This document shows positions 48,021 to 55,038 of a stretch of DNA of 64,000 nt, in pieces (the first letter of the stretch is position 1; every line of letters begins with the position of its first letter). The translations under genes and the position numbers were made by a program. Origin of the DNA: Deltaproteobacteria bacterium (lineage in GTDB: Bacteria; Desulfobacterota; Desulfobacteria; Desulfobacterales; Desulfosarcinaceae); contig JAHLLR010000013.1 in assembly GCA_020444075.1 (NCBI GenBank), positions 28,015-92,014 of the forward strand, in the 5' to 3' direction. The notes beneath the pieces are model-generated. The model was not told the origin of the DNA. It ran no database searches and saw only the letters and a program-made list of their open reading frames with translations.

Positions 48021-48524
48021 TCATGGTTGTTGATCCTGCTGTTTTTGTCCCGCAATGGGTTGGGCAAACTGTATTTCCGAATCCCATGGGAACAGGATCC
48101 AGGTATCCTGGCTCACCTCGGTCATGAATGTGTCTACCAGGGGCCGGCCGGCCGGCTTGGCATAGATGGTGGCGAAATGAGCTTTGGGTATCATGTCACG
48201 AACCAATCTGGCCGTCTTTCCCGTATCCACCAGATCGTCAACCAGCAGCCAGCCGTCTCCGTCACCGGTCGTGGATTTGAGCACCTGGATCTGCCCCTGA
48301 TTTCGGCCAGCGTAACTTGCAATACAGATGGTGTCAACCAATCGGATATCCAGTTCCCTTGCAATAATAGCGGCAGGAACGAGGCCTCCCCGCGTAATCG
48401 CGATAATGCCCTGCCACGGGCCCAGTTCGATCAGGCGCCATGACATCGCCCGGGCGTCCCGGTGCAATTGCTCCCACGAAATGGGATAAGTACGATTATA
48501 ATTGTTTTTTTTACCGGTGGTCAT
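48021..48524 (-). CDS. gpt: Xanthine-guanine phosphoribosyltransferase
   Basis: Purine salvage: PRPP plus xanthine or guanine to XMP/GMP. 167 residues with ITRGGLVPA and the PRPP-binding motif [12 protein letters not shown] (about 93-104), followed by WILFPWD, a hallmark of Gpt-type XGPRTs (ILFPWE in E. coli). It overlaps the Fe-ADH gene upstream by 4 bp (ATGA) and so is translated with the ADH/AOR operon, an odd companion for a purine salvage gene. Hypoxanthine-specific activity cannot be excluded. Confidence 0.9.
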
Positions 48525-49783
48525 CGAATTTGAAGGTTGCCTTTTTTAACGAGGTTTCGATCCAGGGGCGTTCCCGCCCATGCATGGGACATGACCATCA
48601 GCAGGTCATCGTGATCCAGTTCCTCAGGATTGTAAAAAATGGAGCCGTCCCCCATTGCTTTTTCAGCGATGGCTTCCAGTTTTTCGACCGGCACCCGGGC
48701 ACTTCCGTCCGGCCCCGTAATCTCCTTGAAAAAGCGGGCGTGGCGACCGCCGGTTTCCTGGTGAAGGCGCTGGTTCAACTGCCGGATGACGGTGACCGTC
48801 TGCAGAGCCCTAAGATGAGCCGGTGTCTGTGCGTAAACCCGCGGCCCTGCGAGGGGTAGCAACAGTTGGGCAGTCAAATGGCCGCTTTTATGCATATTGT
48901 ACTCCAGTCCATAAGGCAAGAGGATGGCCATGCAGGTTCCGTGGGGCACACCGCAAACCGCGCCTACCGAATGACCTAAGGTATGAACCATCCCCACCAT
49001 GGCATTGGAAAAAGCCACACCGGCCAGGGTTGCTCCAACGGCCAGTGCCAGACGCCCGTCTGCATTGTCCGGCTCGTTTATCACATTCAATAAATTTTGA
49101 CCAATCAATTCAATGGCCAGCAGGGCATGGGCATCACTGAGCGGGTTTTTGGCCAAACAGGTGTAAGCCTCCACAGCATGGGTCAGCGCATCCATGGCCG
49201 TGCCTGCCGTGATTGCCGGCGGGAGGGTCAGGGTCATGCGGGAGTCCAGCACTGCCATGTCCGGCAGCAGGAAATAGGAAGTAAACAGCATTTTCAGATT
49301 CCGGTCATGATCGGCGATCACGGCCACCAAAGTGACCTCCGATCCCGTACCTGCAGTGGTGGGAATAGCCACCAGAGGCTTTAACCGCCGCGTCAGAGTG
49401 CCGGCACCGGAAAACTGCATCAGGTCATCGGCATTTTCAGAGACCACAATATTGACGCCCTTGGCCGTATCCATCACCGAACCGCCACCCACGGCAATGA
49501 TTGCGTCGCAGCCGCTTGCCCGGTAAACCGCAGCCAGTCGCCGAACCACCTTCAGGTCAGAATCCGGTGGCACATCGTCTTCAACGGCACCGATGCGGAC
49601 TTTCGGTGTGACGGCATTGGTGACGATATCCACGAGTCCTGCGGCGGCAACGCCCTTGTCCGTAACGATCATGGGGTGTTGGGCACCCAGCCGGTTCAAC
49701 AGATGAGGAATTTTTTCCAACGCTTGGTGTCCGGCGACAATTTTAACCGGACAGAAGAATTCGTAGTAGCCCGGAAAGTTCAT
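48521..49783 (-). CDS. Iron-containing alcohol dehydrogenase (intact)
   Basis: Group III NAD(P)-dependent ADH interconverting alcohols and aldehydes. 420 residues. Cofactor region [15 protein letters not shown] and [13 protein letters not shown], then the metal site: Asp in [13 protein letters not shown], His four residues later, and two His in [18 protein letters not shown], all present. The C-terminal helical domain is typical, with about 30 extra residues. GGAG precedes ATG 49783. Third gene in the AOR run; adjacent to a diverged, metal-site-less copy. Substrate unknown; context suggests an aldehyde/alcohol pair handled with the AOR. Confidence 0.92.
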
Positions 49784-49837: not shown

Positions 49838-51007
49838 TCAGCCGGCCAGCAGAGCAGCGCCCTGCCTGGCCCCATCGATGATGCGCCTCACATGGTCGTC
49901 AACAGGGCTGCTGCCCACCTGGGCGCGGGCCCGTTCGATCTGTTCGTCGGTCAGCCCTGCTTCACCCAGCGTTGATGGGATTTTCAAGTCCAGCTCAGCG
50001 TTGATCGCATCGAAGAATTCCCAAAAAAGAGCAATGGTGCGAGGTGTTTTAAGGTCGGCGGCAGTCATCGCAAAAAGATCCTCCCCCACCATGGGATAGA
50101 GCAATTCACCGACCCGCTCCGGTTGGACGGCCCCGGCCTCGTCGACCAGGTGGGGCAGCAGCAGCGCCATTATAAAACCAAGGGGAAGATCGGTCGATTC
50201 CTTCAACTGGGTGGCCAAGGCGTGACAGATTCTCGGGGAGGAGGCGAAAAAAGCGCAACCGGCAGCCACCTGACCATTGACCACGGCACAGAGGCTTTTT
50301 TTTCGGTCTGTCCGGCGAAGCGCCATGGGCAGGAATTGCACGATCAGGTTGATGGCGGTGTGGGCGTATGCGCGGCACATGGGCCCGATGGAATCGTCGA
50401 GAAACGCCTCGACGGCGTGAACCAGGCCGATCAGCGCCCCGTCCACCACATCTCGGTCATCCCGATCGGTCATGATTGCCGGGTCGATGAATGCAGCGGC
50501 AGGGACCAGCCGGGGGGAACATAACCGTCTGACACCGTCGCTGGCATAGCCGGTAACCTCGTCTCCGTTGCCGCCGGACGTAGCCACAAGCATCAAGGGC
50601 CGCAAGGAGCCGGGGTCGGAAATGTTTCTGCCGGGATCATCCAATTGTCCATGATCACCTGAGGAAACTGTCAGATTCAATAATTTGGCCGCATCAACCA
50701 CCGGACCGCTGCCAACGGCAATGACACTGTCGCAGCCACCGTCGTGGTACATACGTGCCAGCACGGGCACCAAATCCGATGGCGGCCGGACCGGCAGGCG
50801 GTCATATACGCCCAAAGTCAGTCCCGAGGTTTTGAAGGCATCAATGACTGATTTTAGTCCCTTTTTGCCGACCTGATCCCGGTTGGCCAGAATCAACGGT
50901 GCGTGAGCATTGACGGCAGCCAACTCAAGGGGAAGGTGCGCCAGTGCACGGTTGCCGCAGTTTATTTTCAAGGGGCAGGAAAAAGAAAATTCATCAGGCA
51001 AACGCAT
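49838..51007 (-). CDS. Degenerate iron-type alcohol dehydrogenase paralogue (probable pseudoenzyme)
   Basis: 389 residues, clearly the Fe-ADH fold (start FSFSCPLKINCGNRALAHLP, IIAVGSG-like VIAVGSGPVVDAAKLLNL). The nucleotide loop [13 protein letters not shown] of its neighbour is replaced by LVATSGGNGDEVT. At the metal site only one ligand is kept: AMDALTH reads ALIGLVH (Asp lost), the second His of HTLGH reads HALAT, and PHG reads PLG. Loss of three of four ligands argues against metal-dependent dehydrogenase activity. The reading frame is intact with a good GAGGAG, so it is expressed rather than a pseudogene. It could be a scaffold or regulator of the true ADH or AOR. Confidence 0.8.
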   Translation of the reverse strand: MRLPDEFSFSCPLKINCGNRALAHLPLELAAVNAHAPLILANRDQVGKKGLKSVIDAFKTSGLTLGVYDRLPVRPPSDLVPVLARMYHDGGCDSVIAVGSGPVVDAAKLLNLTVSSGDHGQLDDPGRNISDPGSLRPLMLVATSGGNGDEVTGYASDGVRRLCSPRLVPAAAFIDPAIMTDRDDRDVVDGALIGLVHAVEAFLDDSIGPMCRAYAHTAINLIVQFLPMALRRTDRKKSLCAVVNGQVAAGCAFFASSPRICHALATQLKESTDLPLGFIMALLLPHLVDEAGAVQPERVGELLYPMVGEDLFAMTAADLKTPRTIALFWEFFDAINAELDLKIPSTLGEAGLTDEQIERARAQVGSSPVDDHVRRIIDGARQGAALLAG

Positions 51008-51058: not shown

Positions 51059-53479
51059 TTATAGACCCACTATCGCACGCAGATAGATCAGGGCGCGGCC
51101 CACATATTTTCGAAAAGGCGGCCATTGCGGGTAGCGTCGGACGGCAAGTGAGGCAATCAGCTTTGGCAGAAGGAAGACCTCCACCATGTCGAGAATGCGA
51201 ACCACGGCGCAGGCGGCGGGAACTTCCCCATCTACAATCAGTCGGTCCCTGGCCGCCGCCATGACCGTGGATTCCTGAAAGGTGAAGAGCAGGACCGCCG
51301 CCTCGATGTTTTTAATGGTCAGCTTCAAATCGATATAACGCTGCCCGGCTTTGGCGCCCAGGTATCTGACTTTTCCGGCCTTATCCTTGCCGACGACCAG
51401 GGCCGGACCATCCGGTGCAACGACCAGGGCGAAGGTAAATCCGTCGGGAATGGCAGCGAAGGCGTCTCGTACCCCGCGATCCACCCGGGCGGCCGCCTGA
51501 ATGGCCCGTCCGACAAACCAGAGCATGATGGCCAGATAGAGACGTTTGACCGGTTTGCCGCCGGGTGAGACCATTTTAAAATCACCTAGGCGTGGGTCGG
51601 TCGAAGAGTCCCATTTGGGTTCTATCCCATACCGTTTCAGGGTTTTATCGGTGGGAATACCATGTGCGTCAAATCCCCGAAGCCGATAATAGGAATCGAG
51701 CATGAGTTGCAGGGGAACCGTCCGCTTTTTGGCATCACACCCGCGTCCCTCGGTTAGAAATCGTCTGGGCAGGGCATCGTCTTTGCGGGAAATTCCTTCT
51801 CCGGTGTTCATGTACCGTTCCAGTACATGGATTCGTGCACCGGCTTTGAGCATCTGCCACTGGTTCAATCTCAGACCAGTCACCGACCGCCATAGTTTTG
51901 AAAAAATACTGATATCCATGAGCATGATGGCAACGGCCGGCAGGTACTGCATAAACAGGCTCAGCAGGAATTTGGGTGTGTATTTGACAATAGGCGGCTC
52001 CAGCACATAGGCATAGGATGTGAACTGACAGGTGTGCAGAGAGTTGACCGCGGCATAGAGGTTTTCAAAAAATTGGACGAATCTTGCCTTGGCACGAGTG
52101 GTGTAAGGGTCAAGAAAGCCAAAAGCCACTTCCAGGGCGAAGGTGGTGGCGGACAGGTGGCAGGCACCCCGGTTGGCCACGGCGTAGGCCAGTCCCTGCC
52201 CCCAGGAACCCCTTGGATCGTATGCGGGCATCTCCAGTCCCTTGATCTGGATGGCAAAATCGGCGCCGCCGTACCGTTTGGACAACTGCCTGGTGCCGTT
52301 GGCCATTTCGTCGCCGAACCCCCGCCGCCGGGCCATGTCATCCAGGGCCTGGGAAATACCTTCCGTGACGCCGAATTTCAATCCGGTGGCGATCAAGCCC
52401 TTCTCACCGGCTTCCATGCACCAGGCCAAAACGGAGCCGGCGGAGATGGTGTCTATTCCCAGCAAACCGCATCGATCGTTAAATTCGGTGATGACGTCCG
52501 GATCGAAAATACCCAGGTTGGGGCCCAGCAGACCGACGGTTTCGTACTCCGGAATCTGGTGGATGCTGCCGTCGGCCATAGTGCCCTTGTGCCCGCACAT
52601 GATGGAGCAGGGTTTGCAGGTGCTGGGTCTGGCATTATAGCGCTTTCGCATGGTTTCCCCGGACACCTGATCGGCCTGGGGGTGGCTGCCTCCCTGAAAA
52701 TTTTTCACCGGCAAAATACCACCGTCGTTGCACCAGTTGACGTGGCTGCTGGTGCCGTAATTGCGGTAGTTGTCGGAGGTGGTCGGGTTTTTTTCGATGT
52801 ACCCGGCTGCTCTTTTTTTGGTTCGGTTGAACAGTTTTTGATTGGCAGGAACGATTTTGCACGCTTTTCCCCTGGCAACGACGGCTTTCAGGTTTTTGGA
52901 GCCCATCACCGCTCCCAAGCCGCCGCGGCCCAAAAACCGATGGCCGGAGGCCACATTGGCAATGAGCACCCGGTTTTCACCGGCCGGTCCGATAGCGAGA
53001 ACACCGGCCTTTCCATCCGGGTTCAGCTGTTTCTGGGTATCGTGGGTATCCCGTCCCCAACAGTCGGCGCCATCCATAATCCGGGCCCCGTTTTCATCGA
53101 TATCGACCACGACCGGTGACGGGGCCTTGCCGGTGATCAGCAACCCGTCATAACCGGCTGTCTTGTAAGCCATCCCGAAAGGCCCGCCGCAGGACGAATG
53201 CAGCATAATGCCGGTCAACGGCGATTTGGAAATGGCCGAAAAGCGGCCTGTACAAGGGGCGCCGGTGCCCATGAGCACACCCATCATGAATGCCAGGTAG
53301 TTTTCTTCGCTCAGTGGATCAATCCGGCGATCCATACGGTCGTAAAGCAATTTGAGCCCAAGTCCTTTACCTCCCAGATATCGCCGACGATCATTCCTAT
53401 TCACTTGAAATTCATCTACCTGCCCGGTCGACAGGTTAATCTCGATAATCCGGTTGCTGGTTCCGACGATTGTTTTCAT
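51059..53479 (-). CDS. aor: Aldehyde:ferredoxin oxidoreductase with C-terminal SCP2-like domain
   Basis: Tungstopterin and [4Fe-4S] enzyme that oxidises aldehydes or, in reverse, reduces acids. 806 residues against about 605-620 for typical AORs. Residues 1-640 follow the family: YLGGKGLGLKLLYD, GRFSAISKSPLTG, SHRFLGRGG-like GHRFLGRGGLGAVMGSKNLKA for the pterin, C288-C291-C295 (CKPCSIMC) plus C484 for the cluster, and a C-terminal MLDSYYRLRGFD. Residues about 640-806 are an extra domain: KLTIKNIEAAVLLFTFQESTVMAAARDRLIVDGEVPAACAVVRILDMVEVFLLPKLIA, like SCP2/sterol-carrier lipid-binding domains. AGGA precedes ATG 53479. First gene of the AOR-ADH-ADH-gpt run. Confidence 0.9.
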   Translation of the reverse strand: MKTIVGTSNRIIEINLSTGQVDEFQVNRNDRRRYLGGKGLGLKLLYDRMDRRIDPLSEENYLAFMMGVLMGTGAPCTGRFSAISKSPLTGIMLHSSCGGPFGMAYKTAGYDGLLITGKAPSPVVVDIDENGARIMDGADCWGRDTHDTQKQLNPDGKAGVLAIGPAGENRVLIANVASGHRFLGRGGLGAVMGSKNLKAVVARGKACKIVPANQKLFNRTKKRAAGYIEKNPTTSDNYRNYGTSSHVNWCNDGGILPVKNFQGGSHPQADQVSGETMRKRYNARPSTCKPCSIMCGHKGTMADGSIHQIPEYETVGLLGPNLGIFDPDVITEFNDRCGLLGIDTISAGSVLAWCMEAGEKGLIATGLKFGVTEGISQALDDMARRRGFGDEMANGTRQLSKRYGGADFAIQIKGLEMPAYDPRGSWGQGLAYAVANRGACHLSATTFALEVAFGFLDPYTTRAKARFVQFFENLYAAVNSLHTCQFTSYAYVLEPPIVKYTPKFLLSLFMQYLPAVAIMLMDISIFSKLWRSVTGLRLNQWQMLKAGARIHVLERYMNTGEGISRKDDALPRRFLTEGRGCDAKKRTVPLQLMLDSYYRLRGFDAHGIPTDKTLKRYGIEPKWDSSTDPRLGDFKMVSPGGKPVKRLYLAIMLWFVGRAIQAAARVDRGVRDAFAAIPDGFTFALVVAPDGPALVVGKDKAGKVRYLGAKAGQRYIDLKLTIKNIEAAVLLFTFQESTVMAAARDRLIVDGEVPAACAVVRILDMVEVFLLPKLIASLAVRRYPQWPPFRKYVGRALIYLRAIVGL

Positions 53480-53790
53480 GCAGAGGTTCCTAAACGTTTA
53501 GCGTGAACGCAACACGCCTGAAAGTGGTGCCGGACACGATTATGAATATATATTCGATTCGATACCGTACACCATTTAAAAAATCAGGGCAACTGGTAAG
53601 ATCAGTTGCCCTATTGTTTGAAATCATTCAATTTCATGGATTAATAGCTGCCATCGACAGAGTGTCGTTGACATAGTTTTCAACCCGCCAAAAAAGGTTT
53701 TCTTTCCACCGTAGCAGTTCGAAAAGCCGCGATCCTGGGAAGGAATTGAAATCAAAAAAGCCTATTTTACGGCCGGCTGCATGCGGCTGC
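53480..53790. promoter_or_regulatory. Intergenic region upstream of the AOR operon
   Basis: 310 bp between elbB and aor (same strand). Closest to aor is a perfect 12-bp palindrome CTAAACGTTTAG (53490-53501) that overlaps the Shine-Dalgarno, and next to it GCGTG-N7-CACGC (53501-53517). Both are possible operators. Farther away is the elbB terminator (53571-53612). The remainder to 53790 holds no recognised gene; the 113-aa minus ORF at 53634-53975 mostly overlaps elbB in another frame. Confidence 0.4.
53571..53612 (-). terminator. Rho-independent terminator of the elbB transcript
   Basis: On the minus strand AGGGCAACTG (53603-53612) pairs perfectly with CAGTTGCCCT (53586-53595) across a 7-nt loop, followed by GATTTTTTAAA. 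It lies between elbB and aor, so the AOR operon must be transcribed from its own promoter downstream of this point. Confidence 0.78.
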
Positions 53791-54447
53791 TCAACAAAGG
53801 GATAGAACTTTCGAGACCAGTTTTTCGATCCCGGCGGCAACATCCTTGATGCCGGGTCCCAGCATATAGGCCGGTGTAGTGACGATCCGGTTTTTTTCAT
53901 CCAGGCAAATATCCGAGACACTGCACACCATATGAACACCACCCATGGATTCGATGGCCGATGCCGTGCCGACATCGTTGCCGATGGTTACCCGGGGAGA
54001 TCGGGCTGACAGGGCGCGCACAAGCGTGGCCGGGGCGATGCACACGGCACCGATGGTTTTTGAACGATCGGCCATTTCTTCCAGTAGCCGTTGCACCTGG
54101 GGATGGACTTGAGCCTGGGGGCCCTTGATCGCAAAATCACTGAGATTCTTGGCCGCACCGAACCCGCCGGGAATAATCAGGGCATCGATGTCGTCGGCGC
54201 TGACCGCACTGACATCCTGGATCTCGCCCCTGGCGATGCGTGCGGACTCGACCAGCACATTTCGGCGTTCATCGGCGACCTGCTGGGTCAAATGATTAAT
54301 TACATGCAACTGGTCCACATTCGGAGCCATGCACACGGCCGATGCCCCCGCACGATCCAAGAACAGAAGGGTCAACACCGCCTCGTGGATTTCCGCACCG
54401 TCAAATACGCCGCAACCGGACAATAGCACACCAATTTTTTTAGCCAT
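53791..54447 (-). CDS. elbB: ElbB-like DJ-1/PfpI family glyoxalase
   Basis: DJ-1 superfamily protein; E. coli ElbB has been reported to act as a glyoxalase and is linked to isoprenoid synthesis. 218 residues from ATG 54447 (AAGGA upstream). KIGVLLSGCGVFDGAEIHEAVLTLLFLDRAGA at the N-terminus is diagnostic, with DALIIPGGFGAAKNLSDFA and the nucleophile elbow AVCIAPATL carrying the Cys. Normal length. It is followed by its own terminator. The hotdog protein gene is immediately upstream on the same strand. Confidence 0.9.
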   Translation of the reverse strand: MAKKIGVLLSGCGVFDGAEIHEAVLTLLFLDRAGASAVCMAPNVDQLHVINHLTQQVADERRNVLVESARIARGEIQDVSAVSADDIDALIIPGGFGAAKNLSDFAIKGPQAQVHPQVQRLLEEMADRSKTIGAVCIAPATLVRALSARSPRVTIGNDVGTASAIESMGGVHMVCSVSDICLDEKNRIVTTPAYMLGPGIKDVAAGIEKLVSKVLSLC

Positions 54448-54488
54448 TTGAAATCCTTTCACATCCTGTTAATTTAATAGCGTGATAG

Positions 54489-54872
54489 TCATTCCAGTAC
54501 ATGCTTGTCCAGGACAAAACAGGTGAACATCCCTTGAAAAACAACCTCACTCTCTTTGGTCACGTCCACGGAGACCCAGTATTTCTTGCCTTTGACCTCC
54601 CGGACCTGCGCTATTGCCATCACCGTTTCCCCCACTCGCACCGGTTTGAGAAATTTGACATCCGATGCTCCGAGGACCACATGGGGGTGATTTACCGCAA
54701 TCATAGCCGCATAATCCGCGGCACCGAAGATGAATCCACCGTGGACCAATCCCTGCTCATCGGCCGCCATTTGTGAAGTCGTCAGGAGTTCAACCTGGCT
54801 GTTTCCACTTTCTACGGATAAGGGTCTGCCGCACAGAGAACAATCGATATGGCGATGGGTGTCGATCTTCAT
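54489..54872 (-). CDS. Hotdog-fold thioesterase-like protein
   Basis: 127 residues from ATG 54872 with GGAGG 5 nt upstream. The hotdog core is clear: GLVHGGFIFGAADYAAMIAVNHPHVVLGASDVKFLKPVRVGETVMAIAQVREVKGKKYWVSVDV, with the helix and the beta-strands of the PaaI/YbgC group, and VHGG as the usual active-site region. An odd N-terminal stretch (RHIDCSLCGRPLS) carries a CxxC. Likely acyl-CoA thioesterase or hydratase-like, with substrate unknown; pairing with elbB on the same strand may not mean co-function. Confidence 0.78.
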   Translation of the reverse strand: MKIDTHRHIDCSLCGRPLSVESGNSQVELLTTSQMAADEQGLVHGGFIFGAADYAAMIAVNHPHVVLGASDVKFLKPVRVGETVMAIAQVREVKGKKYWVSVDVTKESEVVFQGMFTCFVLDKHVLE

Positions 54873-55038
54873 ACTGACCTCCAGACGCGTTTCAGGCAGC
54901 GGGTCTGCCCGGGTCAACGACGATTAAAACGGTAAATGACGATGGCGTGGCTTGAAAAGAGAGTTTAATCATAATAAAAAGGGGGCAATGGTGTCAATCC
55001 ATTGCGAGTGAGGATCCGGCCATCAGGGGAGGAAAAGA

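Follow-up and report, generated by a model that had tools for sequence, protein, structure and literature searches.

A Desulfosarcina-like aldehyde oxidoreductase with a putative SCP2-like C-terminal domain, encoded beside iron-containing alcohol dehydrogenases

Aldehyde oxidoreductases (AORs) oxidise aldehydes with ferredoxin, and iron-containing alcohol dehydrogenases (Fe-ADHs) convert alcohols and aldehydes into one another with NAD. Work on tungsten AORs has centred on short and aromatic aldehydes, and the couples of AOR and alcohol dehydrogenase (ADH) known from Pyrococcus, clostridia and Thermoanaerobacter, which convert acids to alcohols, are short-chain systems without a lipid-carrier component. 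SCP2 domains hold hydrophobic ligands, and they accompany enzymes in MFE-2-type and AMP-ligase fusions, in alkylsulfatases (SdsA1) and, as the accessory proteins UbiJ and UbiT, in ubiquinone biosynthesis. In PMC7828175 the AOR and ADH couple is described as acting on C2-C6 acids, and many clades of the AOR/WOR family consist of purely hypothetical enzymes (PMC12096430). In AorABC, the three-subunit AOR of Aromatoleum aromaticum, the catalytic subunit works with accessory parts, identified in PMC6365974 as Fe-S and FAD electron-transfer subunits. The enzyme described here also combines an AOR catalytic subunit with accessory parts, but in this case they are a lipid-carrier-like domain and alcohol dehydrogenases.

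The window analysed is a stretch of 64,000 nucleotides from a Desulfosarcina-like metagenome-assembled genome (MAG), the host genome, which holds 14 AOR-type loci. An ATG-started frame encoding 806 residues exactly fills positions 51059..53479 of its minus strand, the plus strand being stop-rich there; the preliminary description had delimited this gene correctly but left out its strand. The reading frame, Pfam matches and orthologues identify the 806 aa product as a fusion of an AOR with an SCP2-like domain. The AOR core (residues 1-620, 51620..53479 on the minus strand), delimited by Pfam and by alignment with the Pyrococcus furiosus AOR (1AOR), comprises the AFOR_N (residues 10-204, 7.7e-69, 231.9 bits against a curated cut-off of 29.8) and AFOR_C (residues 222-619, 1e-114, 384.2 bits against a curated cut-off of 27) domains. 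It has domains 1-3 in common with 1AOR, and the conserved [4Fe-4S] cysteines C288, C291, C295 and C484 (CxxCxxxC and a distal Cys), E313 and H441 match the cluster cysteines and the active-site Glu and His of that enzyme. The pterin motifs are also as in 1AOR, bearing out an initial reading of the protein as an AOR with complete cluster and pterin motifs. Judged by its domains and residues, the core belongs to the AOR/WOR family, and the conservation of the cluster cysteines, E313 and H441 makes it look catalytically complete. Its metal is presumably tungsten.

Compared with P. furiosus AOR, the window protein adds a hydrophobic insert past the fourth cluster cysteine and a C-terminal SCP2-like domain, and it is encoded in an operon with two Fe-ADHs. 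The insert, at about residues 494-526 (51902..52000 on the minus strand), follows C484 and is common to the SCP2-linked AORs. It is missing in 12 of the 13 other AORs of the host genome; the remaining paralogue (L023, G000:C148:108703-112281) carries a different, longer hydrophobic insert of its own in this position and branches as sister to the clade of SCP2-linked AORs in the tree described below. Across 395 genomes, insert-bearing AORs were identified in 13, the tail family in 23 and both in 10, a co-occurrence with a Fisher value of 1.3e-11, uncorrected for relatedness; in three of these ten genomes (G145, G258 and G418) the insert-bearing AOR and the tail gene lie on separate contigs. The preliminary description contained neither this insert nor the alcohol-dehydrogenase module with its degenerate ADH, all three of which were found here.

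The AOR core and the tail are joined by a poorly conserved linker of 12-20 residues that starts at about residue 621 (~621-633). Orthologues covering the full length, with 65-88% identity, are present in other Desulfosarcina, and fused orthologues of 804-806 aa were identified in the complete chromosomes of D. alkanivorans and D. widdelii and in five MAGs. A frameshift or assembly artefact is excluded by these same-length orthologues in complete genomes, and the fusion is hence genuine, as first proposed. This evidence on length leaves out L016, with two frames, and L078 and L084, with over-long upstream frames. In L016, a draft of Desulfosarcina cetonica, the AOR-SCP2 orthologue is split over two overlapping frames. 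Compared with five Desulfosarcina orthologues, the tail encoded in the window is 76-87% identical and its dN (0.07-0.19) lies far under dS (0.47-1.5), substitution rates that point to purifying selection on the tail.

The preliminary description had recognised an SCP2 pattern in the C-terminal extension, and this assignment stands for the family above chance rather than for the window protein alone. Homologues, fold and profiles assign residues 634-806 (173 residues, 51062..51580 on the minus strand) to an SCP2-like domain, of which residues 659-782 (51134..51505 on the minus strand) align with the SCP2 profile in hhalign comparisons. A Pfam search with the window protein returned no relevant family match for the tail, including no SCP2 (PF02036) match at E<=1, and NCBIfam searches with the tail and its relatives returned no convincing match to any named family. 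We gathered tail homologues from related genomes. Among the 27 members compared with Pfam, SCP2 was matched by seven (best 1.5e-4) and the SCP2-like alkylsulfatase C-terminal domain by two, with one relative (L143:5893-6453) exceeding the curated SCP2 cut-off (22.2 versus 21.3 bits). The comparison of the family with SCP2 by hhalign yielded 98% probability with the bridging member L114 and 85% without it, with scores of 91 and 40, respectively, against at most 18.2 for shuffled columns; with the closest family members only it was weak, at 25%, and 0.7% for the classic SCP2 set. Furthermore, the top four matches of the tail-family profile among PDB sequences were SCP2 proteins, covering the same region with weak E values of 0.3-0.8.

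A structure model of the tail leads to a similar outcome, although the model itself is poor. AF2 returned a pLDDT of 48 for the tail and a worse one, 40, for the full-length protein, so that no domain arrangement can be read from them. The first 44 matches of the tail model against the PDB with Foldseek were nevertheless all UbiJ-SCP2, SCP2 or SCP2-type alkylsulfatase domains (best E 5.4e-4), and the low-confidence model presents the SCP2 order of elements (helix, four strands, two helices, strand, helix). The closest solved fold is that of 6H6P/6H6O, from the UbiJ/UbiT group of SCP2 accessory proteins for enzymes with hydrophobic substrates. The likeness shown is one of fold rather than of UbiJ-level sequence, and the partners here are an AOR and an Fe-ADH, fused or co-encoded. 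Taken from family profiles and the fold model, the tail is very probably a divergent SCP2-like domain, with an SCP2 relationship that, on sequence, holds at the level of the family.

The combination of an enzyme and an SCP2-like lipid domain is shared with MFE-2-type proteins, AMP-ligase fusions and SdsA1, but both the enzyme and the SCP2 branch differ here, the latter being more divergent. Classic MFE-2-type and AMP-ligase fusions also occur in the host genome, where SCP2 domains certain by Pfam are fused to MFE-2-type, SDR and AMP-ligase enzymes; this lineage thus habitually joins SCP2 to enzymes that act on acyl chains. Two such loci, L144 and L145 (G000:C48 and C118), encode MFE-2-type, thiolase/ChsH2/SDR and AMP-ligase proteins that end in or hold classic SCP2, the AMP-ligase having SCP2 domains in tandem in addition to ChsH2-type domains.

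The tail family also exists as a stand-alone gene of about 170-225 aa in a sister genus and several other families, and a survey within the Desulfobacterota detected it in many members of this group. Split versions were found with AOR, ADHs and SCP2-like gene lying side by side. The window encodes two Fe-ADHs on the minus strand, ADH1 (49838..51007) and ADH2 (48521..49783), of which ADH2 is the type that constantly accompanies the SCP2-like gene: an ADH2 homologue scoring above 330 bits adjoins it in 31 of 34 related loci; in the other three (L015, L053 and L078) the locus ends or is truncated at a contig edge. The host genome has only five Fe-ADH matches, which places the association of ADH2 with the tail gene far from chance. 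An additional locus (L143) contains AOR, ADH2, the tail gene and a regulator-like gene.

Most loci have an AOR fused or nearby, of the close type in the fused and several split loci; in six loci the neighbour belongs to a distant AOR subfamily of ~650 residues without the insert. Among the related loci examined, no AOR was detected in seven tail-gene loci (L089 and L091-L096), in which the SCP2-like gene lies directly upstream of an ADH2-type Fe-ADH; their AOR partner may have been added later or be encoded elsewhere. Given these seven loci, the primary partner of the SCP2-like domain may be the ADH. With ADH2 adjoining the tail gene almost throughout, the core pair is hence that of SCP2-like protein and ADH2, and AOR is a frequent third member. 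In a tree of AOR cores built with the insert columns removed, the 12 fused AORs group together as a single clade (96/93), nested in a 100/100 clade that includes split ones. A single fusion is the simplest reading of this nesting, and the tree thus suggests that AOR and tail were probably fused once.

These data bear on whether the tail might be a divergent SCP2 relative that binds no ligand and merely stabilises an ordinary, broad-range AOR for short aldehydes. The weak sequence resemblance of the tail to classic SCP2 would fit such an appendage, as would the broad specificity typical of AORs, but a separate tail gene that is conserved and constantly adjoins ADH2 across many families would not, and neither would the co-occurrence of the tail family with the AOR insert or the purifying selection on the tail. 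We consider this explanation improbable, and the gene context, in which the SCP2-like gene sits beside an Fe-ADH and often an AOR, supports a role in hydrophobic alcohol, aldehyde and acid chemistry in general.

The two ADHs differ in their metal sites. ADH2 has intact metal and NAD motifs, with the D/H/H/H ligands and GGGSxxD all kept in the window and in 31 relatives. ADH1 is still recognised as an Fe-ADH domain, with I/H/H/L in place of D/H/H/H, and the ligands are lost in all 19 ADH1-type relatives located in such clusters. This pattern makes ADH1 a probable conserved pseudoenzyme subunit, and a conserved, catalytically dead paralogue suggests a structural or regulatory role. It would also agree with a structural complex in which the SCP2-like domain serves mainly as an assembly or membrane-attachment module, binding AOR, ADH1 and ADH2 without carrying substrate itself. 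UbiJ-SCP2 domains are the best fold matches of the tail model, and in a model of the Ubi metabolon UbiJ forms the interface with the membrane (PMC9499169). Within the fusion protein, hydrophobicity is highest in the tail and the AOR insert. A pure scaffold, however, would not need a cavity fold, and structurally characterised SCP2 domains generally bind hydrophobic ligands, so that we regard a mainly structural role as rather unlikely. Attachment and carriage are nonetheless compatible. For the SCP2 domain of UbiJ, binding of quinone intermediates as well as membrane contact has been proposed (PMC9499169).

The reading we favour, to which we assign about even chances, is that AOR-SCP2, ADH2 and ADH1 form a metabolon that interconverts hydrophobic alcohols, aldehydes and acids, in which the intermediate would be held by the SCP2-like domain. 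The AOR probably acquired its divergent SCP2-like lipid-carrier domain, a separate subunit in relatives, in a single fusion, and would assemble with the NAD-linked ADH2 and the metal-less ADH1 near the membrane. As in the described AOR and ADH couples, both enzymes would act serially on one aldehyde. The ties of the carrier domain to both AOR and Fe-ADH suggest a hand-over of an insoluble, reactive aldehyde: the SCP2-like domain would hold the alkyl chain of this poorly soluble compound and shuttle it between ADH2 and the active site of the AOR, with the hydrophobic AOR insert as a candidate docking or entry surface. Lipid binding, the physical complex, channelling, the direction of flux and the docking role of the insert are all putative, and the tail could conceivably deliver long-chain or cyclic substrates. 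A narrower version, which we advance tentatively, would make this an anaerobic metabolon for long-chain (fatty) alcohols, aldehydes and acids, composed of a tungsten AOR, an Fe-ADH and a dead ADH scaffold that have in common a dedicated SCP2-type carrier for direct transfer of the aldehyde between both active sites; the AORs concerned would represent a branch of the tungsten enzymes specific to lipids.

In a complete-oxidising sulfate reducer such as this host, net flux through the proposed metabolon would most likely run from alcohol to aldehyde (NAD+) to acid (ferredoxin), the reverse being chemically possible. For D. multivorans, alcohol use and the presence of AORs are both documented (PMC5109826). 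The opposite route, which could, for example, serve wax or ether lipid formation or act as an electron sink, would have AOR reduce a fatty acid to the aldehyde with low-potential ferredoxin and ADH2 reduce the aldehyde to the alcohol. Acid reduction by AORs under favourable conditions is described in PMC6365974, and a hotdog-thioesterase-like gene two genes upstream, kept in Desulfosarcina and in G028, could supply free acids. Nonetheless, a terminator-like hairpin (53585..53613 on the minus strand, a consensus match only) parts the thioesterase and ElbB genes from AOR, and the Desulfobacteraceae oxidise alcohols and fatty acids completely; net reduction is hence unlikely. A search for wax-ester synthase (PF03007) in 14 carriers gave no match, the control search being equally silent. 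The hairpin, located between ElbB and the AOR gene, suggests that AOR may start its own transcription unit. The upstream genes, an ElbB-type glyoxalase (53791-54462) and the hotdog thioesterase-like gene (54489-54917), both on the minus strand, are syntenic in Desulfosarcina and G028, and a scan of the window detected no RNA family and no tRNA.

The preliminary description knew of no AOR-SCP2 fusion, and we likewise found no paper in the open-access literature searched joining AOR with SCP2, nor any joining SCP2 with iron-containing alcohol dehydrogenase; the words fusion, lipid and long-chain are absent from a 2025 review of tungsten enzymes. The AOR and SCP2 halves are of known kinds; to our knowledge, neither their combination nor the operon nor the dead ADH has been described. 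The lipid-carrier fusion and its tie to ADH over several families of Desulfobacterota point to a specific, testable substrate class for one clade of AORs, and would provide a handle for the enzymatic conversion of fatty acids to alcohols. They also suggest how anaerobes that lack oxygenases might handle reactive, insoluble fatty aldehydes in the turnover of alkanes, alcohols and lipids in sediments.
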